A stretch of DNA of 64,000 bases from Pseudomonadota bacterium (GTDB lineage: Bacteria > Bdellovibrionota > Bacteriovoracia > Bacteriovoracales > Bacteriovoracaceae). Location: assembly GCA_027487685.1 (NCBI GenBank), contig JAIYDC010000050.1, positions 1 through 64,000 on the forward strand. Direction: 5' to 3'. Positions 13,056 to 42,405 of this stretch are shown piece by piece; the first letter of the stretch is position 1, and each line of letters starts with the position of its first letter. The notes under the pieces were generated by a model that worked only from the letters and a program-made list of their open reading frames with translations, made no database searches and was not told where the DNA came from. The position numbers and the translations under genes were made by a program.

Positions 13056-15971
13056 ATGGAACAGCAACAAAAAAGCCTCGTAATGAAAGACTCTCCCACA
13101 GTGGTGCCTGAGCTGGACTCGTTCCGGCTCTTCGCCAGACCCCTAACGGCCAGGCTCCTCGAGGCCATGGAGCTCGGGAAACATTTCTTCCATGGTGAGG
13201 GTGATTACCTCTACTATCAGCAAGACAACAGGATCCACCGTGCACTCGATGTAACTGGCGGCTACGGTGCCAATATACTTGGACACCGCCATCCATCGAT
13301 CCTTCAGAAGGTCCAGGAGTGGCGAGAGGCCGGAGCTCCCTCACTCACCCAGGGAAGCTCTCGCCGTGAGGCAGGCAGACTCGCAGAACGCCTCTCAAAA
13401 ACACTTCAGGAGGAAACAGGGGAAGGCCCTTGGGTTACGACGTTTTCAAATACCGGAACAGAAGCGGTAGAAGCCGCTTATAAGCATTGTCTTCTGTACT
13501 TCCGCCAGAAAGCACTTGAGCTCCAGCAGGAGATCGAAAAAGAATTAAACCTTGTCGTCACCAGAATCATGCGCTTAAAGACAGACCAGCAGATCGCTGT
13601 CATGAAAGGCCTGCGGGCAGAATTGATCCATCGTACAGATTCGCTCCGGATGTCTCCAGAGCGGCGTTCATACCTCCTTCATCAGCTCGCCAACTGCCAC
13701 GACCTCGATACTCTCGTCGGTTTGGTACGAATTGTTAACGAAGGCCAGCTCGCCGAACATCCCCATTTCATCGCTCTGGAGCGTGCCTACCATGGGAAGA
13801 CGATGGGCGCCCTCAGCCTCACTTATAATGAAAGCTTCCGCAATCCGTTTTTCCTGGATGCCAAGTCAAATACTCGAACAAGTTTCGTTTCTCAGTTCAT
13901 CGAGGCCAAGGAACTCGAGGCAATCATAGAAGGACTACGCAGGGACCTCCTGTTTATAGGTCTTGGACCAAATGGAGCAACCTGGGTACGGCACTCGTTT
14001 TCAATCCTGGCAGGAGCATTTGTTGAGCCTATTCAGGGCGAGGCAGGCGTTGTCCCGGTAAACACAAACTTTCTGGCCCAGCTTAAAAAGTTTTCCCTCC
14101 AGGAGAACTTTCTCCTTGTGTACGACGAAATTCAGGCAGGCATGTACCGGACCGGTCGCCTCGCTTCCGGGAGTCACTCCGATGTAACTGCCGACGTGTA
14201 TACTTTTTCTAAGTCTCTTGGAGCAGGAGTGGCGAAAATCGCGGCAACGACAATCAACGAAAAAAAGTATGTAGAAGAATTTGGCTTCCTCCACACGTCC
14301 ACCTTTGCTGATGATGACTTTTCTTCATCGGTGGCACTTGCAGTTCTGGACCTTCTTCAGAGTGAAGTATCTCCGGTGCCACAGGGCCTTCGAAACGCCG
14401 ACTACCTCGCAACACAGCTTGAGTCTCTGCGTGATCGTTATCCGGATTACATCAAGGAGATCAGAGGCAAAGGGCTTATGCTAGCGATTGAATTCCAAGA
14501 CCGCCTCGCCGAGCTGGGTTTTGAATTCAAGATCATGTGTGATGCAAAGATGCAGGGCTACCTACTTGCCTCTTGCCTCCTTAATCACGAAAGTATCCGG
14601 ACCACACCATCCCTCTCAAATAGCCTGACTTTGCGAATTCAGCCTAGTATCTACTTCACAGAAACTCAGACGGACGAACTGCTCCGAGGTCTCGAGAACC
14701 TGTGCCGAGCACTTACGGAGAAGAATCTTCGCTATTTTCTATCTGCGCTATATCCTAATGAGGAAGTTGCTAACATTCCCTCTCCTCCACTCAAGAACGA
14801 CTTTATCCCAGGTCAGCGACGCACAGCTGTTTTCCTTTGTCACCTTATCGATGAGCGCCACGTTCAAAGAGTGACTAATCCCTTGAGGCAAGTCTCAAGC
14901 AAACTCCTGGTCCAAAAGCTTGCTCTGACAAAGGAGTTAGCCGAGTTTGAAGTTTATCATTCTCAGACACTCATCGATAACTCTGGTCAGGAAATGGATG
15001 TTCTCTTGATGGCGGTTCCCATTACCTCAGAGGAACTTAAGAAAACTTTCACCTCTCGCCAAAAATCAAAGGTCATTCAAAAAGTTCAGAATGCCATCGA
15101 TTACGCCAAAGAGCTTGGTGCAAGTACCGTTGGGTTAGGTCAATTTACCTCCATCGTTTCAGGAAACGGTCTCTACTTGAATCCCAGAGGCCTGAACCTT
15201 ACTACGGGCAACGCTTTTACAATCGCTCTCACAGTTCAGTCTGCTCTCAGATCGGCAGAAGCTAAAAAGATTGATCTTCCTCGCGCTAGCGTGGCACTCA
15301 TTGGGGCAGCGGGTAACATCATGTCAGTTGCCACAACTCTCATGGCCGATCACGTCGGTAAACTTATTCTTGTCCACCACACACCGATCGAGGCGAGCAG
15401 TAAGTTCCAAGGGACGATGCGAAAGATGCTGACAGAAATGGCCTCCTCGGAAGCAACATCGGAGGTCTGCCGGGTTATTCGTGAGCATTGGAAAAATCAA
15501 GACCTCTTGAGTTTTCTCGAGCTAGAAGAAGTCAAGCGCGTCTTAGTCGCCACTGCAGACGTCACTCAAGTCAGGGAAGCAGAAATCGTCCTTTGCGGCG
15601 CCAGCGCTTCAAATGGATTCCTTACCCTCGACCTCTTTAAAGAAAATGCCGTGGTCGTGGACATCGCCGTCCCTCCATCCATAACGCCTGAGATGCATAA
15701 AGAGCTAAAGGTCAAACGGCCAGATCTTACTTATCACATGGGTGGAGTGGCACAGATCCCTAAGGGACAGAGCCTCGACTTCTTCATCTTCCCCCTGGGA
15801 GAGAATGAATGCTACGCCTGTATGGCGGAGACTTTCTCCCTCGGCTTCAGCGGACGCGAGAATTTCCTTAATATCGGTGACCTGAATAAGGCCATCGTCT
15901 TAGAGGTTCAGGAAATAGCCCGTCAAGTGGGGTTTGTCCTAGGAAGCGATAAGAAAAAAAGCTCGTTATAG
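13056..15971 (+). CDS. Class III aminotransferase fused to acyl-ACP reductase
   Basis: About 971 residues, two enzymes in one chain. Residues about 30-580 form a fold-type I, class III PLP aminotransferase: DEIQAGMYRTG (about 357) and the PLP lysine in TFSKSLGAG (about 386). Residues about 585-971 match long-chain acyl-ACP reductase (AAR, known from cyanobacterial alkane synthesis): LGQFTSIVS, the LTTGNAFT motif (about 715), a nucleotide-binding GAAGNIMSVA loop (about 748) and YACMAET with the position of the catalytic Cys (about 921). Known AAR reduces acyl-ACP with NADPH to an aldehyde; I infer that the aldehyde is then aminated to a primary amine. The start is uncertain: 12951 (GTG) and 13083 are alternatives, and none has a clear Shine-Dalgarno. 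The 3' end overlaps the convergent GNAT gene by 6 bases. Confidence 0.85.
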   Translation: MEQQQKSLVMKDSPTVVPELDSFRLFARPLTARLLEAMELGKHFFHGEGDYLYYQQDNRIHRALDVTGGYGANILGHRHPSILQKVQEWREAGAPSLTQGSSRREAGRLAERLSKTLQEETGEGPWVTTFSNTGTEAVEAAYKHCLLYFRQKALELQQEIEKELNLVVTRIMRLKTDQQIAVMKGLRAELIHRTDSLRMSPERRSYLLHQLANCHDLDTLVGLVRIVNEGQLAEHPHFIALERAYHGKTMGALSLTYNESFRNPFFLDAKSNTRTSFVSQFIEAKELEAIIEGLRRDLLFIGLGPNGATWVRHSFSILAGAFVEPIQGEAGVVPVNTNFLAQLKKFSLQENFLLVYDEIQAGMYRTGRLASGSHSDVTADVYTFSKSLGAGVAKIAATTINEKKYVEEFGFLHTSTFADDDFSSSVALAVLDLLQSEVSPVPQGLRNADYLATQLESLRDRYPDYIKEIRGKGLMLAIEFQDRLAELGFEFKIMCDAKMQGYLLASCLLNHESIRTTPSLSNSLTLRIQPSIYFTETQTDELLRGLENLCRALTEKNLRYFLSALYPNEEVANIPSPPLKNDFIPGQRRTAVFLCHLIDERHVQRVTNPLRQVSSKLLVQKLALTKELAEFEVYHSQTLIDNSGQEMDVLLMAVPITSEELKKTFTSRQKSKVIQKVQNAIDYAKELGASTVGLGQFTSIVSGNGLYLNPRGLNLTTGNAFTIALTVQSALRSAEAKKIDLPRASVALIGAAGNIMSVATTLMADHVGKLILVHHTPIEASSKFQGTMRKMLTEMASSEATSEVCRVIREHWKNQDLLSFLELEEVKRVLVATADVTQVREAEIVLCGASASNGFLTLDLFKENAVVVDIAVPPSITPEMHKELKVKRPDLTYHMGGVAQIPKGQSLDFFIFPLGENECYACMAETFSLGFSGRENFLNIGDLNKAIVLEVQEIARQVGFVLGSDKKKSSL

Positions 15972-17096
15972 CTCACGGCCATAGAGGACATACTCAGAAT
16001 AAGAATCCTGAGAACGCTCTTCGAATGAGCGCCGCGAAGGGGAATTCTTGATCTGAAAGGTTACGAGAACCGTCCGCATGACTGCAGCAATGAGTTGAAT
16101 CCTCTTCGAGACTTGGATCTGTACGCCCTTAATCTCTTCACCCTGAGGCCCAGGGATCTTACCTACGTGAGCGATAAGAAGTGTTGAAAGATTCATCCGG
16201 AGCTGAAGGAGAAGGAGGACCTTCCTCATCTTCGATAACTTAAGCCCTTTGACCTTAGACAGCACAGGTAAGGGATCCGCAAAATTGATGCTAAAACCCA
16301 CGGGCCTTCCGCGCAATTCGACGATGTACGAGTAATAGGGGTTAATGATGTACTTAAAGTCATCATAAATTGTTTTGAATTGCGGAAAACTAATCGGCTC
16401 CCATTCAGGCATACTCTTATAAGCCTCGTTAAAAAGACGGTGGATAATTTGGAGTTCTCCGTCCCAATCAGCAGGCCTCACACAACGGATCGTTGTCCGC
16501 ATTTGCTTATCTCTGGCCTTGGGATGACTTCCGTCACTCTTCTTTGCAAGCTTTTTGCGCTTAACGAGATAATCCCATATACCTTTGAGTCGCTGAATCT
16601 TGTAAGTGTCCCAGCGTCCAATCTCCGAAAATCCCGTAGCGGAGAAGAGCTCATGATAGTAGTCAGGGTAGATAGGTTCGCCCCAAAATGGCTTACCCCC
16701 TCCAGGGCATTTAATTCGGTACTTGATATAAAAATTGAGGTCAACGGGAGTTTTAAGTGACTTGAGCCCCAGGGCCCTGGCCTTCAGAACCACGGCTTCG
16801 ACGAGAGCGTGGGCCGCAGCTGGATTATTATCCCAGTCGAGAAATCCTAGATTTCCGAGAGTGCCATCTCGACGCCAGGCGAGGATCGCCTTCGCGCAGA
16901 CTGATTCGCCGCTGCGAACGATGAAACCGATCCAGGAATAGTCTACTGCAAAGGGATTACGAGGACCGAAATACCGCTCGTAGTCTGAAATAGTCTCTGG
17001 CAAACTCGACGGGACCTCCGAGTGGATTCGGTTCCGGTAGTCAACGAAGACTTCAAAAAAGGCCGTGTCCCAGGCCTCTACAGTGTCAACTCTCAA
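15966..17096 (-). CDS. GNAT-type N-acyltransferase-like protein
   Basis: A 376-residue protein that looks like two GNAT-like halves: residues about 1-170 and about 205-330, the second with the FNEAYKSMPEWEPIS block and a RGRPVGFSINFADP strand pair typical of GNAT acceptor-side elements. The C-terminal third is basic. The start is a TTG at 17096, supported by a GGAGG five bases upstream and by a TTGA overlap with the P450 stop. It is the last gene of the carS-like - ubiA - PPS-like - P450 operon, so its substrate is probably a pathway intermediate, possibly the amine formed by the adjacent fusion enzyme. That link is inference. Confidence 0.65.
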   Translation of the reverse strand: MRVDTVEAWDTAFFEVFVDYRNRIHSEVPSSLPETISDYERYFGPRNPFAVDYSWIGFIVRSGESVCAKAILAWRRDGTLGNLGFLDWDNNPAAAHALVEAVVLKARALGLKSLKTPVDLNFYIKYRIKCPGGGKPFWGEPIYPDYYHELFSATGFSEIGRWDTYKIQRLKGIWDYLVKRKKLAKKSDGSHPKARDKQMRTTIRCVRPADWDGELQIIHRLFNEAYKSMPEWEPISFPQFKTIYDDFKYIINPYYSYIVELRGRPVGFSINFADPLPVLSKVKGLKLSKMRKVLLLLQLRMNLSTLLIAHVGKIPGPQGEEIKGVQIQVSKRIQLIAAVMRTVLVTFQIKNSPSRRSFEERSQDSYSEYVLYGREL

Positions 17097-18394
17097 GTCC
17101 GCCTCCGGAATCTCATCATAATATTATTTACGGGTCTTAGGCTTATACCTGCCTCGTTCAGCTGGGGCCCCGGATCTAGAATTTCCCAGGTAAAATGCTG
17201 AACCAGACAGGCGAGGATGATCCTGGCCTCAATGCCAGCGAAGTAAGCCCCGATACACGCGCGCGGACCGAGACCAAAGGGGTAATATGCACCTGCGGGA
17301 ATTTTCTTTTTCTCCTCTGGCAGGAAGCGCGATGGTCGGAACTCATTTGGAGCGTCCCAGAGATCAGCCGCTCGGTGAGAGAGGATGGGTGCCAGGACGA
17401 CGTTGGCACCAGGCGGAATAACCTGGTCACCGAGCTTGTCCGAAATTTCCGCCTGTCGCATGAAAACCCAGACTGGAGGCCAGAGTCGCATCACTTCATC
17501 GAGAACCGCTCCATGCCAGGGAACGGTGTTTAGTTTCTCGAAGTCGCGATCACTAAAGAAGGTCCGGGCCTCCCTTTCAAGCTCAACTCGACATTCAGAA
17601 TGCTTGGCAATCTCGATCAAGGTGTACGTAAGTGAGTTCGTAATAGTCTCGTGACCCGCCATCATAAAAGTCATGATCTCGTCCCGAATCTCTCGATCAC
17701 TCATCTGCGTCGTCCCCTCGCCTTGAGCATCAATCAGGAGCTGAAGGAGATCTTGCTTACGTGTCCCATGACGCCGCTCATGAATAAGACCAAAAACATG
17801 GCGATCAAACTTCGCGATAATCTCTCTCAGCCGTAGATGATTACCTGTAGGTACCCAAAAAGGGATCGGAAGAGACGAGCGGGTTTTCGCTGTTATGATA
17901 CGCATGAGTTCTAGAATCTCATGAAGCCATTCATCGAGTGCCGGAGTCGGCTCCTGAGAGAAAAGAGTCCGGAGAATAATCCTCCAAGTAAGACGGTTCA
18001 TCTGGTGAAATCCGTCCACATCGCCATCCACATCCAGAGAGGGGAGAAAAGTTTCGACGGTCTCAAGCATTTTCGGTGCAAGGTCGAAGACACTCCGTAA
18101 GTTCATTACTGGGCGGATCATCCGGTGCTGCTTGCGCCAGGATTCTCCTTCATTGGTGATGAGTCCATTTCCGAGAAAGCGCCTTAAGGCCTTGGTAGTA
18201 CGACCTTTGGTATAAGAGCTATTATTTGTCTTAAGGACATACACAACGTCGTCCGGGTGGCTCACGAAAAAGATCTTCTTTCCAAATATTTCTAAGCGAG
18301 CGCGATGGCCCTGGAGTCGATGCAGGTTTTGAATGAACCCGAGGGGGTCGCTACGGTAGTCTTTCAAAGTCCGATATGATTTCAGAAAACTCAT
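17093..18394 (-). CDS. Cytochrome P450
   Basis: A 433-residue soluble P450, a haem monooxygenase that hydroxylates or otherwise oxidises a substrate with O2 and electrons from a redox partner. The I-helix motif MMAGHETITNS (about 245-255), the ExxR motif in DEVMRLWPP (about 298) and the haem loop FGLGPRACIG with the thiolate Cys (about 377) are all present. The N-terminal FLKSYRTLKDYRSDPLGF and the general pattern resemble CYP102/CYP4-like fatty acid or terpenoid hydroxylases. No ferredoxin or reductase gene is nearby. It overlaps the PPS-like gene by ATGA, so translation is coupled. Confidence 0.95.
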   Translation of the reverse strand: MSFLKSYRTLKDYRSDPLGFIQNLHRLQGHRARLEIFGKKIFFVSHPDDVVYVLKTNNSSYTKGRTTKALRRFLGNGLITNEGESWRKQHRMIRPVMNLRSVFDLAPKMLETVETFLPSLDVDGDVDGFHQMNRLTWRIILRTLFSQEPTPALDEWLHEILELMRIITAKTRSSLPIPFWVPTGNHLRLREIIAKFDRHVFGLIHERRHGTRKQDLLQLLIDAQGEGTTQMSDREIRDEIMTFMMAGHETITNSLTYTLIEIAKHSECRVELEREARTFFSDRDFEKLNTVPWHGAVLDEVMRLWPPVWVFMRQAEISDKLGDQVIPPGANVVLAPILSHRAADLWDAPNEFRPSRFLPEEKKKIPAGAYYPFGLGPRACIGAYFAGIEARIILACLVQHFTWEILDPGPQLNEAGISLRPVNNIMMRFRRRT

Positions 18395-20787
18395 AGTACC
18401 TCGATCGTTCCTTTAAGAGCGTCCATACGCAGCCGGTCGCCCGTCTTAATTTTCTGAGTGGCCCCACGCACACCTACAACTGTAGGAATGTTGAGCTCCC
18501 GTCCAATGATCGCCGTGTGACTCAACAGAGAGCCTTTCTCAGAAATAAGCCCACGGCTCCGAGACATGATGTAAACCCATGCCGGGTCTGTATTCTTTGT
18601 AACCAGGATAAAATCACTGAAGTCAGACACCAAAACGTCCCGTGGGTTGTCGAGCACCAGTGCAACACCTTCTGCGATACCAGGAGAAACCCCCTGTCCT
18701 GCGAGTGCTCCCAGGGTTCGATTCGCACTAGGCTCCGGAAGAGGCTCCTGTGCAACCCAAGCAATGACCTCCGGATAGTGACGTTTCTTATCCTTCCAAC
18801 CTCGCCGATCTTGCAGCCGTTCGCGGACCTTTTGCTCCGAGATTTTACCATCAGCATAATCAAGCCACTCCTCGGAAGAGAGGGAGAAAAAATCGAGGAG
18901 GTCGAACTCTTTCCATGCTGGATCGCTGTCCATCAACCGGCCGGCCAGAGCTAGTACCATTTGTCGAATAAGGTGATAGAACTTTCCTCGCCACAACCGA
19001 GTTGCTTCGCGCATAGAAACCGCATCTCGAGTATATCTGAGGATACGATTACCGACAAAACCCAGATTAGGCTTTTGGGGTGGAGTTGCGGATGCCAGAG
19101 TCAAGGCAGTATTTTTTTTACACCACAGCATGAGATCGGCCAAGAGCCGGGGATTGTTCCTTAGAGGAAGACTTTCAAGTTTGAGTTCTTCAAATGAGCG
19201 GTCACCGTAGCAGCGTAGAAAATCGTCTAGGAGCTTGACCTCGCGCTCTCTGCCCTGAGTACACAAATTTCGAAAGATTTCATCATAAGGTGATAGGCCA
19301 ATCGAAAGTTCCTGGGCCGCAAACTCTCGAAGGAATTCTTCGTCGAGCGCCTCAATAAGCTGGTTAAAGTGCTCAAGAGGCTTTACCGAGTCGACACCAT
19401 CATCAGTCTTAAGTAAGTCGATCACAGTATCCTCATGCAGGTTCTTCGCCTTCAATTTGCGAGTGAGATAACCTAGACCCATCATAATAAAGATGTCATT
19501 GACCACCGTGAGACCAAATCCCAGGGGGCGGTTAGTCACCTCCACTAAAAAGCGGATCAGCTCCGCAGGACTTTGTCGTGTTGTAATCTCTTGCTCAATC
19601 TCACCCCTGAATCGATCAAGATCCGCCAGAAGTTGATTGAAGATCTGGCGGTGCCCCTTGAGGATACGGACAAGAGCGATGCCTGTCTGGAGGGTTTCAA
19701 GTCGCGTGAGCTCTGTGGCATGGTAAGGGATGAAATGGTCGGCCACCTTTCCACCAATCATTTTATGCCAATTATCGATGTTACGTTCTCCTCCCGGTAG
19801 TGCACGAAGAACGGCGTAGTAATGCTCGAGATTGTAATAAAGGTGGTTATCCACTTCACTGATGAGTTGCGAATAGTGATGATTGAGAGCTTCGAGTCGC
19901 GGGCCCTGGGCCCCCATGAGAATCGCAGACTCCTTAAAAACATTTTGGTATGCCTTCTTCACAAAAGCAGCGGTAAATGGACTCACTGTACCCGGGTATG
20001 ATTCAGAAAGATTCGTATCGACGAAGTAGACGAGTGGTTCAAAGGAACGAGTGATAGGCCTAATCTGGAACACAAAAAGTGTGCCATCTTTTATGCCCCA
20101 TTCGATGTCACTGGGAGGGCCAGCCTTTGCTTCAAGTGCCAAACCAAACTTTAAAAGCATATCGAGTTCGAGGGAAGAGAGGACAGGATTCTCAGCGGCG
20201 AGCGTCGAAGCTACGAGTTCACCGGTCCGTGCTAATCGGTAGGTATCCACATCGGCGTGTCCGGAAACGACTCCCTCCCCCATTCCGAGGGCAGCATCAA
20301 TGACGACAGTCGAAGTCGGGGTTACCGGAGAGCGAGTAAAAAGAACGCCGCTTTTGTCTACCTGGACCAATGCCTGTACCACCACCGCCATCTCAAGGTT
20401 AATCGAGATTTTTTTCTGTAAGACATACTCACGGACGCGGTCACTTTCAAGTGATGCATAGATCTGACCTAGGGCCCGTTGCCAGTCATCTTCACGGACT
20501 CCGAGAATTGTGTCGAAGAGACCTGCGAAACTCGCGTCGGCGGCGTCCTCGGCGATCATAGAACTCCGGAGTGCTACAAGTGGATGGTCTTGAAAAAAAA
20601 GTCGAAAACGATCGAAGAGATCCGGAGGAAAGCTGCCATGCTTTTGAAACCATCGATAAGCATTCGTGGTCACCACGAAGAAAGGCGGTACTGGAGCGGC
20701 CCAAGAAACGAGTTTTTGAAGCTGATGACCTTTTCCCCCGACGGACGTCGCCGGAGCAGTAGGACCCATTTCCGCAATCAGAGTCAT
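18391..20787 (-). CDS. PEP-synthase-like ATP-grasp/phospho-His enzyme 1
   Basis: This 798-residue protein has the PEP synthase N-terminal ATP-grasp domain (GGKGHQLQKL near residue 18; ALRSSMIAEDAADASFAGL near 75; VDKSGVLFTRSP near 145) and, at its very C-terminus, the swivelling phosphohistidine domain (GSLLSHTAIIGREL, His about 757). The PEP-binding C-terminal barrel of true PEP synthase is missing. This order is that of rifampicin phosphotransferase and of PigC/RedH/TamQ condensing enzymes, which activate a substrate with ATP. The middle 400 residues would hold substrate specificity. It sits in an operon with UbiA-like and P450 genes through ATGA overlaps. I infer phosphorylation or ATP-driven condensation of a pathway intermediate. 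Confidence 0.85.
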   Translation of the reverse strand: MTLIAEMGPTAPATSVGGKGHQLQKLVSWAAPVPPFFVVTTNAYRWFQKHGSFPPDLFDRFRLFFQDHPLVALRSSMIAEDAADASFAGLFDTILGVREDDWQRALGQIYASLESDRVREYVLQKKISINLEMAVVVQALVQVDKSGVLFTRSPVTPTSTVVIDAALGMGEGVVSGHADVDTYRLARTGELVASTLAAENPVLSSLELDMLLKFGLALEAKAGPPSDIEWGIKDGTLFVFQIRPITRSFEPLVYFVDTNLSESYPGTVSPFTAAFVKKAYQNVFKESAILMGAQGPRLEALNHHYSQLISEVDNHLYYNLEHYYAVLRALPGGERNIDNWHKMIGGKVADHFIPYHATELTRLETLQTGIALVRILKGHRQIFNQLLADLDRFRGEIEQEITTRQSPAELIRFLVEVTNRPLGFGLTVVNDIFIMMGLGYLTRKLKAKNLHEDTVIDLLKTDDGVDSVKPLEHFNQLIEALDEEFLREFAAQELSIGLSPYDEIFRNLCTQGREREVKLLDDFLRCYGDRSFEELKLESLPLRNNPRLLADLMLWCKKNTALTLASATPPQKPNLGFVGNRILRYTRDAVSMREATRLWRGKFYHLIRQMVLALAGRLMDSDPAWKEFDLLDFFSLSSEEWLDYADGKISEQKVRERLQDRRGWKDKKRHYPEVIAWVAQEPLPEPSANRTLGALAGQGVSPGIAEGVALVLDNPRDVLVSDFSDFILVTKNTDPAWVYIMSRSRGLISEKGSLLSHTAIIGRELNIPTVVGVRGATQKIKTGDRLRMDALKGTIEVL

Positions 20788-21659
20788 AGAAGCGCACCGA
20801 CGAGGAGGGCCGAAACGACCAAAAGAATCTGCGCCTCGGCGATAGGTCTCAGGGGCCTTGGCAAACGGAGGGTCACGAGAAAATTCACTGACGGGAAAAC
20901 AAGTGCTGCCTGGATCACAAGGAAAATCGCCCAGAGATAGTTAGGGGTCGAAAGTTTTTCGAAAATGGCCACTACTGCGAATGTGTAGATGAACTGGAGA
21001 GCAAGGGCGATTATGATTGCAACTCGAGGTCCTAAAATCTTTGAGTAAGTCGTATAGGCATTCTCCTGCTCAGGGGCCCGAATCTTGCGAACTAGCTCCC
21101 AGGTAGTAAACATAAGGCAGACGGGGAAAATGTATCCAATCATAGAGAAGGAAACAGCTGGATTTATTTCAGTACAGGCCAGGACAAGGTAAGTGAAATT
21201 AAACAGAACAATCGGGTGATGGGAGACAAATGCGAGAGGAAGACTTCTCCGCATTCTCTCTTCTAAAAAAAACCATTTTAACATGAGGTAGGTAAACCCA
21301 AGCGTAACTAAAGCCCAGTTCAGAAGCTTGATGGAAGTAAGACTCAAAAAGATCACCATAAAAATGCAGAAAAACCCCAAGGAGCGAAGATCCGCAGCGA
21401 GCACCCTCCCGGATGGAAGAGGTCTTTCTGGAAAATTTGTAAGGTCGTCTTGGTAATCCTTGAACTCATCCATGACACGAATCAGGAGTGACACAAAGGC
21501 GAGCACCACTCCAGGAACGACCAGCATGAGGATCGAGCTGTGACGGACTCCGTATAGCCGCAGGTAGGTCAGCTGGACGGCAACAGCAGTTAGGATGGAA
21601 CCCGCAAATGACGACATCGGGAACATCTCATTAAGATAGACGAAAATGCGTTTCAACAT
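20784..21659 (-). CDS. UbiA-family prenyltransferase-like membrane protein
   Basis: A 291-residue protein with about eight or nine membrane segments. The first Asp-rich motif of the UbiA superfamily is visible as DEFKDYQDD (64-72), followed by FPERPLPSGR, and the second half has the degenerate counterpart ELVRKIRAPEQENAYTTYSKILG. UbiA enzymes transfer an isoprenoid chain to an aromatic ring, to glycerol phosphate lipids or to other acceptors. The adjacent CarS-like gene recalls archaeal lipid synthesis, where a UbiA member makes digeranylgeranylglyceryl phosphate. Acceptor and donor are not predictable from sequence. The gene lies 8 bases after carS and overlaps the PPS-like gene. Confidence 0.85.
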   Translation of the reverse strand: MLKRIFVYLNEMFPMSSFAGSILTAVAVQLTYLRLYGVRHSSILMLVVPGVVLAFVSLLIRVMDEFKDYQDDLTNFPERPLPSGRVLAADLRSLGFFCIFMVIFLSLTSIKLLNWALVTLGFTYLMLKWFFLEERMRRSLPLAFVSHHPIVLFNFTYLVLACTEINPAVSFSMIGYIFPVCLMFTTWELVRKIRAPEQENAYTTYSKILGPRVAIIIALALQFIYTFAVVAIFEKLSTPNYLWAIFLVIQAALVFPSVNFLVTLRLPRPLRPIAEAQILLVVSALLVGALL

Positions 21660-21667
21660 ATCAATTC

Positions 21668-22225
21668 CTAGAATGGATTCTTGCGGATGCCCGCGAAGTA
21701 GAGGGTTACATTAATGAGTAGATGGAGGATCGTGCCGAAGCCGACTGCGACTACCATGGTTACTGCACTTACTGGTAGGAGAAGTCGGTAGGCCAGGAGG
21801 CAGCCAACGGCAGAATCTGCCTGATCAAGGACTACAAAGAACCACTTGTACCGATCCGACGTCTGACCTTCCCGGATACCTAGCCGCCGCTTCAGGAATG
21901 AGTTCGGAAGTTCCGCGAGACAGTACCCCAATCCCAGAAGAAATGCGAAGAGGATTGCTGAGTGATCGCCGAATAGCGGTGTATTTAAGTCAAACAAGGG
22001 TTCTAATGAGCGTGCCAACAGAACTCCGGGCCAGGTAGCGAGGGGCATCACAAGAAACCCACGCCAGGTCTTGTTTTGTCCAAACCACCTTTGATGTATG
22101 GGCTTCTTAAAGTAAGATAGGATATCCGCCTTTACCGCAACCATATGAAAAACTCCCCCGACAATGAGGGGGACAGTAAGTAGGAACACCCGGCCAAACT
22201 CGTGAACGGCGGAAACTGGACTCAT
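21668..22225 (-). CDS. CDP-archaeol synthase (CarS)-like CTP transferase
   Basis: A 185-residue integral membrane protein. The block KPIHQRWFGQNKTWRGFLVM, then AELPNSFLKRRLGIREG and the short VLDQADS motif match the CarS/DUF46 family, which transfers CMP from CTP to a lipid phosphate to give a CDP-activated lipid. The length (about 180) is typical. In archaea this step follows prenyl ether formation; in bacteria the family is sporadic and its substrates are mostly unknown. It is the first gene of the five-gene minus-strand operon and starts only 11 bases from the divergent permease gene, so the two promoters must lie inside each other's coding sequence or overlap. Confidence 0.8.
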   Translation of the reverse strand: MSPVSAVHEFGRVFLLTVPLIVGGVFHMVAVKADILSYFKKPIHQRWFGQNKTWRGFLVMPLATWPGVLLARSLEPLFDLNTPLFGDHSAILFAFLLGLGYCLAELPNSFLKRRLGIREGQTSDRYKWFFVVLDQADSAVGCLLAYRLLLPVSAVTMVVAVGFGTILHLLINVTLYFAGIRKNPF

Positions 22226-22236
22226 AAGTAGATTAT

Positions 22237-23475
22237 ATGCTGAACGATGAAAACCGCTACCTTTTCAAATTTGCCTGGAAGAGCATCCGCCGCCATACGG
22301 GAAGAAGTTTCTTCATCGGCTTCTCCGTCTCCCTTGCTGTAGTCATCGCCGTTTGGGTGATCGCATTTTTTGACGGCCTAAATGCACAGATTGAAGAAGC
22401 GGTCGTGAATACTAACACAGGCTTCTTTCAGGTTCAGGATCCAGTCTATGCCAAGACGACTGACACGGGTCAGCCGCGGCCATACACCTCTGAGCTCCGG
22501 GCCCTCATCGAAAGTCAACCGGTTCTTGCTGCGTCTCCAGAAGTCGTCCTGGACGGAAACATCTCTACCCCCGAAGGTGCTGCAGGCCTTTTCGCCATCG
22601 GAGTGGTCCCGGAGCTTCATCAAAAACTACTACCGATCGCCCAAAGGATCGTCTCCGGCAGCTTTATCGATGATAAAACCGTTGGAGAAGTTATCATCGG
22701 AAACGAACTGTCCAAGCTCTTTAAATTTTCTGTGGGGGATCAGTTAGTTCTTAACTACCAGGACGTAACCGGAGACCTGCGCTCCGAGCTTCTCACGATC
22801 AAGGGCGTCTACCACTACAACAGCATGAGTTTCGAGAAGCGTTTCGTGTACATAAATCAACCCACCTGGCAGACACTCTTTCTTAACGGCAACTCTGGCG
22901 AAATTCTCTTCAACCGCATCGTCGTCAACACGCCCGGTTTTCAGGACGGGCCTGCTCTTCGGAGCCGAATCACGGGGCAGGGCCTGGAGCTTAGGAGTTG
23001 GAAGCAACTGAACCCGGAAATGGCCGTGGTCCTCGAATTCCATGATGGCATGATCAAATTCTTTTTCTTCATCATCGCAGTCACAATCACCATGACGATA
23101 TTGACACCAGTCAGGATGCTCTGGCAGGAACGGTTCAAGGAGCTCAAGATGATGAACGTCATCGGAGTCTCAGTTGGGAAGTTCTGGAAACTTGGCCTCT
23201 ATGAGGTCTTTCTTATGATCGTTTTCTCTGGGACTTCTTCGGCCCTCATTCTTGTGGGCCTGATTGGTTACCAGACCTGGAACGGCGTTGACTTTCGTTT
23301 CCTGAGTGACGGCATCTCGATTGAGCGGGCAGGGATAAAACTTCCGGGCGTGATCTACCCCCGTCTAACTCTGGAGCAGCTCGCCGTTACGTTCCTCTTC
23401 GTCATTTTCGTCCTGAGTGTGAGTTACATCTGGTCGATCCATCGGACTCTCCGCCGATTGGAAGTAGAGTCATGA
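22237..23475 (+). CDS. FtsX/LolE-type ABC transporter permease 1
   Basis: A 412-residue permease of the MacB/LolCE class: a first membrane helix at about 25-45, a large periplasmic domain (about 50-265), and three helices in the FtsX domain (about 275-295, 320-350, 380-405). The periplasmic part includes the typical 'VIIGNELSKLFKFSVGDQL' element (here near 150-170). In LolCDE such permeases pass lipoproteins to the carrier LolA. It overlaps permease 2 by ATGA and leads an export operon of five genes. Cargo is unknown; the neighbours suggest a lipid or lipopeptide product. Confidence 0.85.
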   Translation: MLNDENRYLFKFAWKSIRRHTGRSFFIGFSVSLAVVIAVWVIAFFDGLNAQIEEAVVNTNTGFFQVQDPVYAKTTDTGQPRPYTSELRALIESQPVLAASPEVVLDGNISTPEGAAGLFAIGVVPELHQKLLPIAQRIVSGSFIDDKTVGEVIIGNELSKLFKFSVGDQLVLNYQDVTGDLRSELLTIKGVYHYNSMSFEKRFVYINQPTWQTLFLNGNSGEILFNRIVVNTPGFQDGPALRSRITGQGLELRSWKQLNPEMAVVLEFHDGMIKFFFFIIAVTITMTILTPVRMLWQERFKELKMMNVIGVSVGKFWKLGLYEVFLMIVFSGTSSALILVGLIGYQTWNGVDFRFLSDGISIERAGIKLPGVIYPRLTLEQLAVTFLFVIFVLSVSYIWSIHRTLRRLEVES

Positions 23476-24680
23476 AGGCTTTTATCTTTCTCCTGAAGTT
23501 TAGTTACCGCAATCTCTGGCGCTCCCCTAAGCGGACGGCCATCATGCTCCTTTCCCTAGCTATAGGTACCGGTTTCATTATCTGGGACCTGAACTTCGCT
23601 AACTCGGGCTCAAAGGAAGTTATGAAAGAGTTCCTCGCGCAATACGCCGGAGAATATCATGTCACTCACCTGGACTATTACAGCGATAAAAATAAAAAGG
23701 AATTTGATAACTTCCAAACAATCTCGGACGATGAAATCGCGGATAAGAGAATTTTAGCAACCTCTACCCGTAGGGTTACGGCACCGGTCTTCGTGTCCGG
23801 GGAAAAGAAGACCCTCGGAGTCCTCCTTACGGGCATAGAACCCGAAAGGGAGAAGGCCCTCACATCCCTCGCCCAGGCCGTGACTACCGGCCGCTTCCTC
23901 GCCCCAGAGGCCCAACGGGAAATAATCCTCGGCAAACGCCTCGCTCGGCGCATCGATGTCAAAATTGGTGACGAAGTGGCGGTCATTGGTCAAGCCCTGG
24001 ACGGTTCGGTGGCCAATGACCTCATGACGGTCGTAGGACTTCTGGACTTCGGCGGTGGTGACCTCGAAGAGTCGCTTGCCTTCACCCAGCTCGCCAGCGC
24101 TCAAGAATTTCTTGCCATGTCTTCAGATAGCTACCATCAAAGAATCGACTTTGACATGAAAGACGATACGACGCCCGTGCTACCAGGCCTCGCTGTCACG
24201 AAATGGGAAGAGATCCTTCCCGAAATAGGAATTTCTGTCCAATTTGTCGATAACTTCACTTGGATCGTATCCTTCATCATTGTTATCGTCATAAGCCTTG
24301 GTCTTTCTAACACACTCATGATCACCTTCTTAGAACGAGAGCAGGAGTTTCAAACCCTGAACATCATCGGCGCTAAAACCTCATGGGTCGCAACTGCACT
24401 TATGATCGAAGTGTTCATGCTCGGAAGCGTCGCTGTTATCGTCGGCTCAGGTCTAGGCCACATTGCAACCACCCTCTGCTACTATTTCCCGATCGATCTT
24501 CAGTTATTCACAGGAGGACAACCTATCATTATGGGTGGACTTAGCATCCAGCCTCTTGTGCGATTCTACCCCGTCATCTCCTATTACTGGAAGGTCCCGC
24601 TACTTATCTATTTTTTCCTTGGGCTGACAATGATCTACCCACTTATCCGCGTTATCCGGAGGAGCAAAAATGCAATTTGA
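23472..24680 (+). CDS. FtsX/LolC-type ABC transporter permease 2
   Basis: A 402-residue second permease of the same architecture as its neighbour (helix at about 20-40, periplasmic domain with REIILGKRLARRIDVKIGDEV, three C-terminal helices). The RNLWRSPKRTAIMLL start is the typical MacB_PCD/FtsX opening. Two different permeases and one ATPase match a LolCDE-like heterodimer. Its last codons contain the ATG of the ATPase gene (24670). Function follows from context: extraction of an envelope lipid or lipoprotein from the inner membrane. Confidence 0.85.
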   Translation: MKAFIFLLKFSYRNLWRSPKRTAIMLLSLAIGTGFIIWDLNFANSGSKEVMKEFLAQYAGEYHVTHLDYYSDKNKKEFDNFQTISDDEIADKRILATSTRRVTAPVFVSGEKKTLGVLLTGIEPEREKALTSLAQAVTTGRFLAPEAQREIILGKRLARRIDVKIGDEVAVIGQALDGSVANDLMTVVGLLDFGGGDLEESLAFTQLASAQEFLAMSSDSYHQRIDFDMKDDTTPVLPGLAVTKWEEILPEIGISVQFVDNFTWIVSFIIVIVISLGLSNTLMITFLEREQEFQTLNIIGAKTSWVATALMIEVFMLGSVAVIVGSGLGHIATTLCYYFPIDLQLFTGGQPIIMGGLSIQPLVRFYPVISYYWKVPLLIYFFLGLTMIYPLIRVIRRSKNAI

Positions 24681-25359
24681 ACTCGTTAATGTAGAGAAAG
24701 TCTATCAGGCCTCAGAGGAGAGCAAGGTCTTTGGTGCCAAAGACGTTAATCTCCGAATCTCGGAGAGCGACTTCATGGCGCTGGTTGGCCCTTCTGGCTC
24801 CGGGAAGACGACGATCCTGAATCTCATCGCAGGTCTCATCCTTCCGACAAAAGGAACCCTCCGGCATGGAGGCGGGGACATCACTGCTCTGTCTCTCGAG
24901 GAGCGAACCAAGCACAGACTCGATTACATGGGTTTTATCTTTCAGGACTATCAGCTCCTCCCCATTCTTACTGCGGCCGAGAACGTTGAGTTCCCGCTCC
25001 AACTTAAGGGCTTCTCTCAAAGCGAGATCCGGGATCGAGTCAAGTGGGCCTTGGCCCAGGTCGGACTAGAGACCATGGGTCAACGATTTCCTAAACAGCT
25101 CTCAGGTGGCCAGCAACAGCGAGTCTCAATTGCCCGTGCGATTGCTGGAAAGCCGCAGCTCATCCTGGCCGATGAGCCGACGGCGAACCTCGATTCAAAG
25201 ACAGCACAAGAGATCATCGAACTTTTCAAAAAACTAAACCAGGACTACAAGCTCACGTTCGTCTTCTCGACTCACGATCAGCGGCTTATTGACCAGGTGA
25301 AAACCGTTCACTACGTAAAGGACGGCCAAATTTCAGACACAAGGACACACCATGCGTAA
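24670..25359 (+). CDS. LolD-like ABC transporter ATPase
   Basis: A 229-residue ATPase with Walker A GPSGSGKTT (about 39-47), Q-loop in IFQDYQLLP, signature LSGGQQQR (about 143) and Walker B LILADEPT (about 164), H-loop STHDQR. Size and motifs place it in the LolD/MacB/FtsE group that serves FtsX-type permeases. It lies between permease 2 and the LolA-like gene, overlapping both, which fixes the operon: permease, permease, ATPase, periplasmic carrier, outer-membrane protein. Confidence 0.93.
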   Translation: MQFELVNVEKVYQASEESKVFGAKDVNLRISESDFMALVGPSGSGKTTILNLIAGLILPTKGTLRHGGGDITALSLEERTKHRLDYMGFIFQDYQLLPILTAAENVEFPLQLKGFSQSEIRDRVKWALAQVGLETMGQRFPKQLSGGQQQRVSIARAIAGKPQLILADEPTANLDSKTAQEIIELFKKLNQDYKLTFVFSTHDQRLIDQVKTVHYVKDGQISDTRTHHA

Positions 25360-26083
25360 GTACATCTTCAGAAAAGATTTTGTTTTTTGCCTTGCTCTCG
25401 GAGCGAAGATTAACAACCCGGACGCCTGGCTTGATTATCAAGAAAAAGAAATGCGCGGCGACCGCTCACGCTCAGATATGGTCATGACAATCAAGACCCC
25501 TAACTGGAGCCGAACTCTAGAGATCCTCTCCGATGTCGAGGGTAAGAAGCAGGCCCTCTCGACCATCCAGTCGCCAGCGAAGGACAAGGGGATCCGAACA
25601 CTTCGGATCGAGAACAACATGTGGAACTATTTTCCTAAGCTTAAGAGGAAAGTTGCAGTCTCGAGCTCAATGCTCCTTGCGAGCTGGATGGGGTCTGATT
25701 TTACAAATGATGACATCTTGAAAGCTTCTTCCATGGCCGAAGATTATAGCCATAAGTTCGCCAAAGACATCCCCGGCTTTAAGGTCATTATCAACACAGC
25801 AAAGAGTAACTCGAAAGTCATGTGGCCTCGTATCGTAACCTACGCATCGAAGAAGGATTGTCTTCCGCGCCGTTATGGCTACTACGATAAGGAAGGAAAG
25901 CTTCGCCGAACACTCAACTTTAGTCAGATCAAAACCTTTAACGGACATAAGGTTCCAACTCATTGGGAGATGATTCCCCAGGATGATAAGACGAAGAAAA
26001 CAGTCATCGACTACCGGTCGATAGACTTCGCCGTGGTATTCAAACCCGACCAATTCTCACAAAAAAACCTCACCGGGAACTAG
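25352..26083 (+). CDS. Outer membrane lipoprotein-sorting (LolA-like) protein
   Basis: A 243-residue periplasmic protein of the LolA-like 'outer membrane lipoprotein-sorting' type: DMVMTIKTPNWSRTLEI, then IENNMWNYFPKLKRKVAVSS, MGSDFTNDDI and the C-terminal TFNGHKVPTHWEM pattern. Such proteins have a half-closed beta-barrel that carries a hydrophobic cargo and commonly accompany MMPL or FtsX-type exporters. The N-terminal MRKYIFRKDFVFCLALGAKI can serve as a signal sequence, though it is short. It overlaps the ATPase by 8 bases and is followed after one base by the outer-membrane protein. Confidence 0.8.
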   Translation: MRKYIFRKDFVFCLALGAKINNPDAWLDYQEKEMRGDRSRSDMVMTIKTPNWSRTLEILSDVEGKKQALSTIQSPAKDKGIRTLRIENNMWNYFPKLKRKVAVSSSMLLASWMGSDFTNDDILKASSMAEDYSHKFAKDIPGFKVIINTAKSNSKVMWPRIVTYASKKDCLPRRYGYYDKEGKLRRTLNFSQIKTFNGHKVPTHWEMIPQDDKTKKTVIDYRSIDFAVVFKPDQFSQKNLTGN

Positions 26084-26084
26084 G

Positions 26085-27302
26085 ATGAAGACAATCGCCT
26101 CGATCTTGTTGTTTAGCATGGCCCCGCTCATGGCAATCGCCATGAACGCCGATCTGTCTGGAAACCTAGAAGGTCAATTCCGGAACGCTACAAACAATGA
26201 CGAGGCAAAAAAATCGCCTCTGTTCCAGGACTGGGACAACGAGAACTTCTTCCTTGCCTATGGTAACGTTAACGCCAAAATCGAATTAGGTGATTCTCGC
26301 CTTGAGGCGAATTGGTTTGGGCGCCACGGACTATCCCCCCTGTACGAGCCAAAACCCTTAAGCCCTCTTGGGGCCGATCGAGATCCCTACCTCGCGACAA
26401 ATGTTTTCAGTTTTCCGCAGCGGCTCGTGGCACGGGATATGTTCAAGCTTCAACACGTGTACCAGCAAGGCGATCGAAAAACGGAGTCCGTCCTCAACAA
26501 GTTCTACTACGAGTGGGACTACGACAAAAACCGTTTCATGGTTGGCCGGATGTACATCAACTATGGTCTGGGCGAAATCTTTAATCCGATGAACCCCTTT
26601 AATCAACCCACAGGCCTCACGGCGATTTCTCAGGTTGCCCAAGGCAACGATGGATTCTCCCTCACCTACTTTGTCAGCGACTCCCACACTATCCAATTCC
26701 TGCTCCTGGGCGACAAACGTATCGAAGGTTACGACGGCGAGATCAATCGAACTCTCTGGCTCCATGGCGAGTACCAATACTCCGGTAATCTCCAGCTCGA
26801 TTATGTCATCGGCGAAGACCAGAACCGGCAGAAAATCGGAGGTCAGGTTAGCTACCAGTTAGAGGATGCACTCATTTTTACGCAGCTTCTCTACCAGTCG
26901 CCAAATATAAAGGACGAGCCGTCCCACAACCTCTTGGATCTGCTCTTTGGATACGATCAGCAGCTTACAGGAATCTGGCACGTACGGTTCGAGGGTGGGT
27001 ACCAGAAATCTGATCGCTTTGCGACGGCGACTACCTTCGACCGATTTCTGCCCACGGAGTACTTCGGTGCCCTTGCAAACGTCATAGAGGTCCATCCCTT
27101 ACTGAAAGTTAGTGGAACACTCATTCACGACGTCAAATCGGGTTTCAGCTACACCATCGCCAAGGCGACCTATAGCGCTACAAAAAGTACCGAGGTCGAA
27201 GCCTTCGCCTTTAGCCCAATCTCCCGGGGAGATGAGCCTGACAACCTAGCCCAGAAGCTTGTCACTCAAGACTTAGGCGTGGCCCTGCGCGCTTTCTTCT
27301 AA
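26085..27302 (+). CDS. Outer-membrane beta-barrel of the export operon
   Basis: A 405-residue protein with signal peptide (cleavage near IAMNA) and a long series of amphipathic strands ending in a terminal Phe (VALRAFF). It resembles the DUF1302-type barrels that sit with LolA-like proteins and lipid exporters, but I assign this by context and pattern, not by a diagnostic motif. It is the fifth gene of the export operon. The 3' end overlaps the convergent second PPS-like gene by 30 bases. It probably receives the cargo or acts as an outer-membrane exit or insertion site. Confidence 0.7.
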   Translation: MKTIASILLFSMAPLMAIAMNADLSGNLEGQFRNATNNDEAKKSPLFQDWDNENFFLAYGNVNAKIELGDSRLEANWFGRHGLSPLYEPKPLSPLGADRDPYLATNVFSFPQRLVARDMFKLQHVYQQGDRKTESVLNKFYYEWDYDKNRFMVGRMYINYGLGEIFNPMNPFNQPTGLTAISQVAQGNDGFSLTYFVSDSHTIQFLLLGDKRIEGYDGEINRTLWLHGEYQYSGNLQLDYVIGEDQNRQKIGGQVSYQLEDALIFTQLLYQSPNIKDEPSHNLLDLLFGYDQQLTGIWHVRFEGGYQKSDRFATATTFDRFLPTEYFGALANVIEVHPLLKVSGTLIHDVKSGFSYTIAKATYSATKSTEVEAFAFSPISRGDEPDNLAQKLVTQDLGVALRAFF

Positions 27303-29588
27303 GACCTCCACTAAACCCGTTTTTCCATTCATTCGGATGAGGTCACCATCTTTAATGAGCTTGGTAGCACCAATCAGATTTAGGATTGCAGGTATCCGAT
27401 ACTCTCGTCCAATCACAGCGGCGTGAGACAAAAGGCCTCCAACCTCGGTGATCACTCCCCCGACACGGGCGAGAACCGGTGTCCATCCGGGATCAGTGAA
27501 GACGGTCACAAGAATCTCATCTTTCCTGAGGCCTCCAGTCTGATGGATGTCGAATATGACCCGCGCACGCCCCGTAATTTCACCGGGACTACAGCCTACA
27601 CCCTTGAGATCTCCAGATCCCGAAGCTTTTGCAGCTTGAATACTCCCACCGAATTCATTGGGCGGAGTGAACAGGCGATACCCCTCATAATACTGACGCC
27701 TACGGGTCGTATCCGGGAGTGAGGAGCCGGATAAGGCCCTCAGGACTTCCTTGATGTCGAGCATGAAGACATCAAGCTCAGACATGTCCCGACGCTGAGC
27801 GAACTCAAGGAGTCCGAGGCGTAGGAGGTAATAAGCGCGCGTCGAATAAGAGCGCATCTCTTCACGCAGACGCAGGTACTCACGAGAGGCTTCCGTGCGT
27901 CGTTGGAAGGTCAGCCGTCCTAGAAAGCCGAGTTTATTTCGGATGCGCTCAAAGGTTGCACGGTAGCGGTCTTCTCCGCCCACGCTCGAGGGGAGGTAGC
28001 TTCTAACGAGGTCGTCAACCCAATCCTTACGTTCGCCCCAGCGTGGCACCCGAAGATCTAGCTCTGCAGGCCCATGATGGTAATGATCTTTAAGGAAGAT
28101 TTCTCGTTCTCGGTGATACCCCTCAGACCCGAGGCTGGATAACTCCGCCACAGACCATAACTTCGCAAGCCCGCCCTGTACGTCCAGATGCGCGACACCC
28201 CGGAGCTCACTCATAAGGTCGACCTCGTCGCCAAGTTCGTACCCAGGAAGTTTTTTCAGATAGCTTTTGTACTCCGTTTGGTAGTTTGAATTATTGTAAA
28301 TAGTCCGGAAATAGCTTTTCTCTGTCTCGTTCTGATAACGAATAACATCGGCAAACCAAGTGGCAAATTCTGACATCGGCATGAGATGAAGTTCTGGAAG
28401 CTTCGACTTCAGATAACCATCTCTTATCTCGAAAGCGTCCCGAAACAGGCGGATCATATTCCGGCAATCAAGGAATTCCTTATTGATCCCAATCAGTACA
28501 GGAATAGCTCCGACAATGGTCGCGAGAGAAACCGGGGTATGTGCCGGACCCGCCTCGCCGTAATCCTTCTGAACTCCGATATCGCGGTCAAAATCGGCTT
28601 CTTTGAAATCCGGTAGTTTTTTAAGACCGTCCTTCACCGCCCCGGCGTTCCAGTAAACGCGGCCGTAGTGATAAACTATCCAGTCAACCTCCTCATCGTT
28701 TGTAATCAACTGAACTTTTTTTAAATAATCTCCCATCGAATACCTAAGCGCATCTCGGTAGACGGAGAACATGAACTGGGTACAAACACGGGCGGAAACA
28801 CCTCCGTCTTTGAAATCAGCGTTGGTGAGTTCAGGAGAATCCGTACGAGGGGTGAAAGTGGTGACTGGCCTGGATTGGAGAATATAGACTTTGCCGTCTG
28901 CACCTATCGCCCACTCAATATCCTGAGGTGATCCATAATGGGCCTGGATACGTGCCGCCAAATCGACGAGCTCCTTTAGGTGCTCGAGAGCAATGGTTGT
29001 CCCTTCGGTGTTGATCGATTCAAGGAGCTTTCGATCCGATAGCCAGTCGTAGACAATCGATGTGGGTGTTACATGGCCCGAGACGAGGCGCTCCCCAAGT
29101 CCGGCACAACATTCGATGTACATCTCCTCCTCATGTCCGTTTAAGGGATTAATGGTGAAGAGAACACCCGCAATAAGTGCTGGAACCATTTTCTGCACTA
29201 AAACACTCATCCGCAGAGAATCTGGCGTCCAATCGATGCCTCGAGTCTGAAGGTAGTCACGCACACGCAGAGAATCCCGGGACGCAAAGCACTCAATGAT
29301 CCGCGCCTCTAGATCAGCGCCAGAGGTAACATCGAGGAAGGTCTCGTACTGGCCTGCAAAACTAGCATCTCCGAGATCCTCGAGACTTCCGCTCGAGCGC
29401 ACTGCCACAGGGAACCCCCCAATGATCTCGATTGCTGCCAAAGCTAAGGGAACGGGTTTTTCAAGCACAATGCCAGGAGGAACGGGAAAACCGGCAAGAA
29501 GGAGTTCGTGGAGCTTCCCTGCTTTACCGCCGAACGTTGAAATCGTCTCCACGTCCAGCGTGGGGTCTCCAAGATAAAAGTATGTCAT
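27273..29588 (-). CDS. PEP-synthase-like ATP-grasp/phospho-His enzyme 2
   Basis: A 771-residue relative of the 18391-20787 enzyme with the same domain order. The ATP-grasp part has TFGGKAGKLHELL (about 18-30), AVRSSGSLEDLGDASFAGQ and GVLFTINPLNG; the C-terminal swivelling domain has GGLLSHAAVIGRE (His about 721). The PEP-binding domain of PEP synthase is absent. The central region differs strongly from enzyme 1, so the two probably act on different substrates of one pathway or at two steps. It is convergent with the export operon and divergent from the radical-SAM operon. Confidence 0.85.
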   Translation of the reverse strand: MTYFYLGDPTLDVETISTFGGKAGKLHELLLAGFPVPPGIVLEKPVPLALAAIEIIGGFPVAVRSSGSLEDLGDASFAGQYETFLDVTSGADLEARIIECFASRDSLRVRDYLQTRGIDWTPDSLRMSVLVQKMVPALIAGVLFTINPLNGHEEEMYIECCAGLGERLVSGHVTPTSIVYDWLSDRKLLESINTEGTTIALEHLKELVDLAARIQAHYGSPQDIEWAIGADGKVYILQSRPVTTFTPRTDSPELTNADFKDGGVSARVCTQFMFSVYRDALRYSMGDYLKKVQLITNDEEVDWIVYHYGRVYWNAGAVKDGLKKLPDFKEADFDRDIGVQKDYGEAGPAHTPVSLATIVGAIPVLIGINKEFLDCRNMIRLFRDAFEIRDGYLKSKLPELHLMPMSEFATWFADVIRYQNETEKSYFRTIYNNSNYQTEYKSYLKKLPGYELGDEVDLMSELRGVAHLDVQGGLAKLWSVAELSSLGSEGYHREREIFLKDHYHHGPAELDLRVPRWGERKDWVDDLVRSYLPSSVGGEDRYRATFERIRNKLGFLGRLTFQRRTEASREYLRLREEMRSYSTRAYYLLRLGLLEFAQRRDMSELDVFMLDIKEVLRALSGSSLPDTTRRRQYYEGYRLFTPPNEFGGSIQAAKASGSGDLKGVGCSPGEITGRARVIFDIHQTGGLRKDEILVTVFTDPGWTPVLARVGGVITEVGGLLSHAAVIGREYRIPAILNLIGATKLIKDGDLIRMNGKTGLVEVLEESAQGHA

Positions 29589-29674: not shown

Positions 29675-29784
29675 GTCGAGCTTCCATTTGACCAAGGGAC
29701 GACGTTCCCAATAAGATGGCTCTATGAGCAGACTTTTTCCCTACTTCCTAGCTTCAAGCTTTGGATCGTTTTCAAGGGGGCTTA

Positions 29785-42350: not shown

Positions 42351-42405
42351 AATGGCGCCTTATGTTTACCATCTATTTAAGCAAGATTCAGAACCCCAGT
42401 CTAGT

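Follow-up and report, generated by a model that had tools for sequence, protein, structure and literature searches.

Seven enzymes encoded in a compact block of the 64,000-nucleotide stretch analysed here (the window), which comes from a bacterium of the Bdellovibrio group, are best read, on balance and with modest confidence, as one pathway to a fatty-amine-derived envelope lipid, a reading built from sequence comparison. The block, at 13056-29588, is tightly packed and holds 12 genes, the seven enzymes and five genes of a Lol-like export line, where the initial annotation had counted 13 contiguous genes. The reading frames of all the families that it named are present and open, and Pfam, NCBIfam and fold matches agree with its family calls, the gene count apart.

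13056..15971, plus strand: AT-AAR, class III aminotransferase (N-terminal) and acyl-ACP reductase (C-terminal), TamH-like (PF00202, reductase profile)
15966..17096, minus strand: GNAT, tandem-GNAT N-acyltransferase, YghO homologue in the ceramide-synthase position (BLASTP, family profile, Foldseek)
17093..18394, minus strand: cytochrome P450, accessory (PF00067, E 2e-64; FGLGPRACIG heme motif)
18391..20787, minus strand: PEPS1, ATP-grasp/middle/His-swivel phosphotransferase, UbiA partner (PF01326 and PF00391)
20784..21659, minus strand: UbiA-type membrane transferase (PRK13592, conserved motifs, fold match)
21668..22225, minus strand: CarS-like CTP:lipid-phosphate cytidylyltransferase (PF01864, E 4e-11)
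22237..23475, plus strand: FtsX1, MacB/LolC-like permease of the export line (PF12704)
23472..24680, plus strand: FtsX2, MacB/LolE-like permease (PF12704, PF02687)
24670..25359, plus strand: ABC ATPase of the export line (PF00005, E 7e-35)
25352..26083, plus strand: LolA_like periplasmic carrier (PF17131, E 2e-41)
26085..27302, plus strand: outer-membrane-barrel-like protein, OMP (no Pfam match; its sister-locus counterpart matches DUF1302)
27273..29588, minus strand: PEPS2, RPH/PigC-type phosphohistidine enzyme, AT-AAR partner (PF01326 and PF00391)

The strand pattern is one of convergent and divergent units. AT-AAR (plus) is followed by a minus-strand run of five genes, GNAT-P450-PEPS1-UbiA-CarS, spanning 22225 down to 15966; the plus-strand export run FtsX1-FtsX2-ABC-LolA-OMP (22237-27302) diverges from CarS across a gap of 11 bp and converges with PEPS2 (minus). 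These mixed strands rule out a single operon for the whole block.

A candidate fatty-amine synthase and its N-acyltransferase

The aminotransferase domain of AT-AAR matches PF00202 at E 4e-57, and both the PLP lysine and the aspartate of class III transaminases, Lys387 and Asp358, are invariant in 14 relatives, as is C923 of the reductase domain. In profile comparisons the reductase domain matches PigE (4ppm, E 8e-39) and the cyanobacterial AAR (6jzq, E 1e-23). The same profile alignment places C923 on Cys296 of PigE, a residue taken to correspond to AAR's catalytic Cys294 (PMC8341465), and the catalytic cysteine of an acyl-ACP reductase is hence present. TamH, whose domain order is identical to that of AT-AAR, converts acyl-ACP to a fatty amine in vitro (PMC9594044), and PigE likewise performs thioester reduction followed by transamination (PMC8341465). 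By analogy with these two reactions, there is a strong case that AT-AAR would produce a fatty amine from acyl-ACP; the acyl reduction and amination proposed in the initial annotation are well grounded in domains and conserved residues. The likeness to TamH and PigE lies in the fusion of a class III transaminase to an acyl-ACP-type reductase with a conserved catalytic cysteine. Unlike theirs, the present locus lacks a TamA-type ACP/adenylation partner and bipyrrole genes, and has genes of membrane-lipid chemistry instead.

The neighbouring GNAT has no Pfam match. BLASTP aligns it to Escherichia coli YghO at E 2e-13 over 282 residues, its family profile scores 60 bits against YghO, and its AlphaFold model (pLDDT 81.5) matches tandem GNATs in Foldseek at E 1e-11; judged against E. 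coli YghO, it belongs to the YghO/bCerS family of N-acyltransferases. In E. coli strains, YghO adjoins spt, ACP, epimerase and fatty acyl-AMP ligase genes, a set that we take to be the composition of a ceramide cluster. With homology to YghO established and the substrate predicted, there is moderate confidence that GNAT acylates the fatty amine to form a ceramide-like amide. What the locus would share with the bacterial ceramide cluster (Spt, CerR, ACP, acyl-AMP ligase and an enzyme in the YghO/bCerS position) is a YghO-family tandem GNAT acylating a long-chain amine. The source of that amine differs, being reductive amination of acyl-ACP here rather than serine condensation by Spt, and the locus holds neither serine palmitoyltransferase (Spt) nor CerR; one Spt-related match, 36% identical to E. 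coli Spt, lies outside it. The P450 next to GNAT is missing from the block in two genomes (G193 and G213), and is a dispensable, accessory member.

Two phosphohistidine enzymes

PEPS1 and PEPS2 each combine an ATP-grasp domain with a C-terminal catalytic histidine domain. PEPS1 matches RPH structures at E 1e-41 and carries the His motif SLLSHTAIIGRE, and His722 of PEPS2 is invariant among relatives. Both resemble the RPH/PigC/RedH family in their ATP-grasp, middle and C-terminal His-swivel domains and in the catalytic histidine. They differ from it in scoring 188-285 bits against the RPH, PigC and RedH models, under cut-offs of 999-1350, and in being accompanied by the membrane enzymes UbiA and CarS. 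Against RPH proper, PEPS1 scores 188 bits and PEPS2 250, below the curated NCBIfam cut-off of 999; the best NCBIfam model for PEPS2 is RedH (285 bits), followed by PigC (259) and RPH. Because the two proteins score about equally against the prodiginine ligases (PigC/RedH) and rifampin phosphotransferase, the earlier statement that the locus has no synthase or ligase goes too far as regards ligases, while it stands for polyketide and peptide synthases (PKS and NRPS).

This resemblance raises the alternative that PEPS2, as a PigC/TamQ-like ligase, condenses the fatty amine into a tambjamine-like defensive alkaloid, soluble or membrane-active, which the ABC and outer-membrane proteins would export. 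In its favor, AT-AAR and PEPS2 form an obligate pair, reminiscent of PigE and the condensing enzyme PigC in prodigiosin synthesis, and RedH is the top model for PEPS2. Yet pyrrole, PKS and NRPS genes, bipyrrole (MBC) biosynthesis genes included, are absent from the 12 genes of the block, so that the tambjamine pathway itself is rejected, and CarS, UbiA, the YghO-type acyltransferase and, elsewhere, phosphatidylserine decarboxylase (Psd) all indicate membrane lipid chemistry. An alkaloid is considered unlikely, and a lipid product is preferred.

The genomic neighbors of the PEPS proteins bear on the mechanism. A UbiA-family gene lies within 1 kb of 44 of the 59 PEPS matches other than PEPS2, and CarS within 1 kb of five of them; PEPS2 itself lies no farther than 1 kb from CarS in four genomes. 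The genome from which the window comes (G000) contains two further UbiA-PEPS pairs, at L198 3-3541 (C45) and L197 9606-13005 (C101), one of which adjoins a P450 and the other a histone-deacetylase-fold protein.

UbiA, CarS and the head group

UbiA has no Pfam match and scores 118 bits against NCBIfam PRK13592. Its D64xxxD68xxxD72 and NFPxRPL motifs are invariant, and its closest solved folds are the DGGGP synthases 7bpu and 6m31 (TM about 0.6). The second acidic motif is unusual, and since it departs from the customary DxxxD, prenyl transfer by this enzyme is uncertain. CarS aligns over its full length to CDP-archaeol synthase (5guf, E 1e-6), retains invariant KR...DQ.DS motifs, and is a cytidylyltransferase of the archaeal-pathway family (PF01864; 5guf).

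The closest folds of UbiA and the match of CarS both lead to archaeal lipid synthesis, which invites the reading that the bacterium makes an archaeal-type ether lipid, with UbiA as the DGGGP synthase and CarS forming CDP-archaeol. The described bacterial ether-lipid case, however, depends on GGGP synthase (PMC7852524), and PF01884 has no match in the window's own genome, which is 97.7% complete, while control genomes were positive; the archaeal ether-lipid pathway is rejected on this ground. Moreover, such a lipid leaves no place for the fatty-amine and N-acyl genes. Compared with the archaeal polar-lipid pathway (GGGPS, DGGGPS/UbiA and CarS), the likeness is confined to the UbiA fold and the CarS family, whereas neither AT-AAR nor the phosphohistidine enzymes are paralleled there. 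An archaeal-type product is very improbable, and the fatty-amine-derived lipid remains the favored reading.

For that lipid, the best clue to its polar part comes from other lineages. In G144, a Psd gene is coupled to CarS-PEPS2, and Psd homologues adjoin the pathway in G155, G263, G090, L073, G287, G283/L076, G247 and G182, with a weak match in L091; these loci cover different families and phyla. The adjoining Psd is the sole one detected in G090, G155, G263, G247, G182 and G287. The window has no Psd, that of its own genome sitting elsewhere, and a motif scan revealed no PssA-type CDP-alcohol transferase beside the pathway. The pathway-adjoining Psd suggests that CarS feeds the synthesis of a phospho-head group, perhaps serine or ethanolamine.

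Conservation and co-occurrence

Window proteins were compared by tblastn with the neighborhoods around AT-AAR matches. Order and orientation are kept in every sampled enzyme-bearing genome of the same genus, as far as the contigs reach, and also in G138 from another genus, with protein identities of 30-94% across the compared genomes; an arrangement that recurs in this way is not a chance one. In several relatives, rplU-rpmA-obg (assigned from protein sequences) come after PEPS2, the radical SAM genes being missing, and the right boundary of the block is therefore fixed by this junction. The radical SAM genes at 29761-32949, missing at the site in G242, G236, G213 and G272, are rejected as cluster members. 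In the window, radical SAM/SPASM genes flank the rplU-obg region at 29761-32949 and 40923-45549. A tandem family of three similar proteins of secreted type, each about 345 aa long, is encoded at 7666-8712, 10080-11126 and 11437-12474, with small lipoprotein-like genes in between; the nearest relative, G123, is the only other genome in which it was seen at this site.

The enzymes recur in other gene orders in more distant genomes. Three from other families carry AT-AAR, UbiA, PEPS1 and GNAT with CarS and PEPS2 farther along (G144); CarS, PEPS2, AT-AAR, UbiA and PEPS1 (G090); and UbiA, AT-AAR, PEPS2 and CarS (G155). PEPS2, AT-AAR, PEPS1, GNAT and UbiA are clustered in a Planctomycetota MAG (L073). 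A Spirochaetaceae MAG (L091) carries PEPS2, GNAT and AT, with CarS elsewhere in the genome; among seven genomes of other phyla searched for CarS, only the Spirochaete G293 was positive. AT-AAR occurs at E<=1e-120 in 12 of 198 Planctomycetota genomes, and five of these 12 neighborhoods, including that of L073's genome, hold one or more additional partners in profile or BLAST searches.

Joint presence is striking in the 291 genomes of the phylum. AT-AAR and PEPS2 occur together in 28 of the 29 AT-AAR genomes and PEPS2 alone in none (Fisher p=3.5e-38, relatedness ignored); the sole AT-AAR genome without PEPS2 is G091, whose AT-AAR is truncated. UbiA (at least 150 bits) and CarS (at least about 170 bits) are jointly present in 20 of the 291 (p=1e-25, relatedness again ignored). 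The bit thresholds were set after the score lists were seen, that for PEPS2 lying in the clear gap between 516 and 363 bits. The UbiA/CarS part is missing in 11 of the 29 AT-AAR genomes, some of which have a different surrounding cluster; AT-AAR and PEPS2 are a smaller core that serves more than one pathway. Scattered, independent positions in related genomes were the initial annotation's own argument against a single pathway; what was found is clustering in close relatives and in distant core-bearing families, with a subset that keeps only AT-AAR and PEPS2. Together, block synteny, joint presence and absence, and recurrence in other gene orders support its grouping of the enzymes.

The export line as a separable partner

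Two FtsX-type permeases, one ATPase and a LolA-like carrier give the export line its likeness to LolCDE/LolA. It differs in the low score of FtsX1, the permease scanned, against the NCBIfam LolC/E family TIGR02212 (only 44 bits, cut-off 362), in an extra barrel-like protein, and in a carrier of the LolA_like PF17131 subfamily. A canonical LolCDE identity is rejected on the FtsX1 score.

An AT-AAR match is absent in eight same-genus genomes sampled, and the site could be read far enough in five (G228, G226, G141, G215 and G219). In all five, FtsX1-FtsX2-ABC-LolA-OMP is intact upstream of rplU-rpmA-obg, and both the left-side enzyme genes and the right-side PEPS2 are gone. This absence is certain for G228, G226 and G141, in which single contigs run from the left flank to rplU; the sites in G219 and G215 were read rightwards, starting a short way to the left of the export genes. 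Remnants persist in G141 (61 AT-AAR and 34 CarS residues), in G219 (89 residues of AT-AAR) and in G215 (54 residues of AT-AAR, a weak match at E 6e-5), and a sixth genome, G091, retains adjacent, truncated copies of AT-AAR and CarS. Given the remnants in these four genomes, the enzymes were deleted. On an export-protein tree rooted on G138 (support 56-100), the enzyme-minus genomes are scattered, and at least four independent joint losses are therefore the simplest account. The seven enzymes behave as one unit, kept or lost jointly. The export operon, because it is intact wherever same-genus enzymes were deleted, is a separable partner with some value of its own. Its earlier assignment as an integral part of the pathway is not supported in that form: genomes keeping export without the enzymes contradict a fixed membership, and the line outlasts enzyme deletions at the same site.

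The deletions in G141, G219 and G215 (L217, L216 and L218) leave overlapping AT-AAR stretches upstream of FtsX1. The overlap covers roughly residues 151-247, where the transaminase has an insertion, and could be due to chance or reflect an element that was kept, for instance a promoter.

An export operon that is intact where the enzymes are deleted could also mean two neighboring but independent functions, the enzymes making an inner-membrane lipid and the Lol-like operon exporting something unrelated. This is rather unlikely, as the export genes lie between the enzymes in G138 and in all enzyme-bearing same-genus genomes with spanning contigs, and sister UbiA-PEPS loci carry ABC/FtsX/LolA lines of their own. 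The same outer-membrane protein, moreover, is found between PEPS2 and CarS in G256. Given this placement and the scarcity of the barrel-like protein beyond the genus (a total of 16 among the family's 95 genomes), a link between export and enzymes remains likely. Transfer of the lipid to the outer membrane is a plausible, indeed probable, but not exclusive role of the Lol-like line.

Proposed pathway

The favored pathway would begin with acyl-ACP from fatty acid synthesis, which AT-AAR would reduce to an aldehyde on Cys923 and aminate to a long-chain amine. The YghO-like tandem GNAT would acylate this amine into an amide lipid analogous to ceramide, to which the P450 might add a hydroxyl. PEPS1 and PEPS2 would transfer phosphate from ATP via phosphohistidine. 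Co-occurrence and adjacency pair PEPS2 with AT-AAR and PEPS1 with UbiA; PEPS2 would act on the amine or amide branch, and PEPS1 would supply UbiA with a phosphorylated substrate. CarS would convert a lipid phosphate to a CDP-lipid, giving the product a phospho-head group, possibly serine or ethanolamine as the Psd genes beside the pathway in other lineages suggest, and UbiA may join a further, possibly isoprenoid, part. The adjacent Lol-like line would carry the lipid to the outer membrane, in addition to its role without the pathway. Phosphorylation, CDP activation and UbiA transfer are steps that we infer.

A text search of the open-access literature yielded no described pathway or paper with this gene set, in keeping with the initial remark that no named pathway is known to have it. 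A bolder proposal, put forward tentatively, is that of a new bacterial membrane lipid class, an N-acylated long-chain alkylamine that bears a phospho-head group derived from CDP and a chain attached by UbiA. The pathway to it would be present in at least three phyla and would employ RPH/PigC-type enzymes as lipid kinases or ligases. If true, bacteria would possess another route to ceramide-like lipids, in which reductive amination of acyl-ACP replaces serine condensation, and RPH/PigC-like enzymes would acquire a role in membrane lipid synthesis. AT-AAR, PEPS2, GNAT, UbiA, CarS and PEPS1 (and Psd elsewhere) make up a testable gene set in relatives of predatory bacteria and in some Planctomycetota, and the natural gene-loss genomes within the genus offer ready-made comparisons.

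Related loci

AT-AAR and PEPS2 also reside in another shared cluster, at L056 3215-19371 (G270) and in G147, G161, G182 and G287. Its genes encode an acyl-CoA dehydrogenase, AIRS-like proteins, a class I/II aminotransferase, HAD and PLD-domain proteins, and thymidylate-kinase-like and DAGK-like kinases.

Sister loci of variable content occur in many Bdellovibrionota genomes (L179 1400-17001, L180, L181, L183, L184, L185 and L191). They encode a protein that has an acyl-ACP-reductase-like domain and lacks a transaminase, an NAD_binding_4 reductase, a DAGK-like lipid kinase, a PEPS1-like enzyme, UbiA (fused in L179 to an AMP-binding domain), an alpha/beta hydrolase, a formyltransferase, a YghO-like GNAT and an ABC/FtsX/LolA/DUF1302 line, and represent another undescribed lipid pathway. 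A second undescribed lipid cluster is that of the CarS-PEPS pairs at L186 7930-16360, L187, L188 and L189, which are followed by a methyltransferase, a PlsC-type acyltransferase, a fatty acid desaturase and a GH3-family protein (families as scanned in L188 only). In the actinobacterium Planosporangium (L120 2810-11285), transaminase, UbiA-like and PEPS1-like matches lie near one another and near an AfsA-domain protein.
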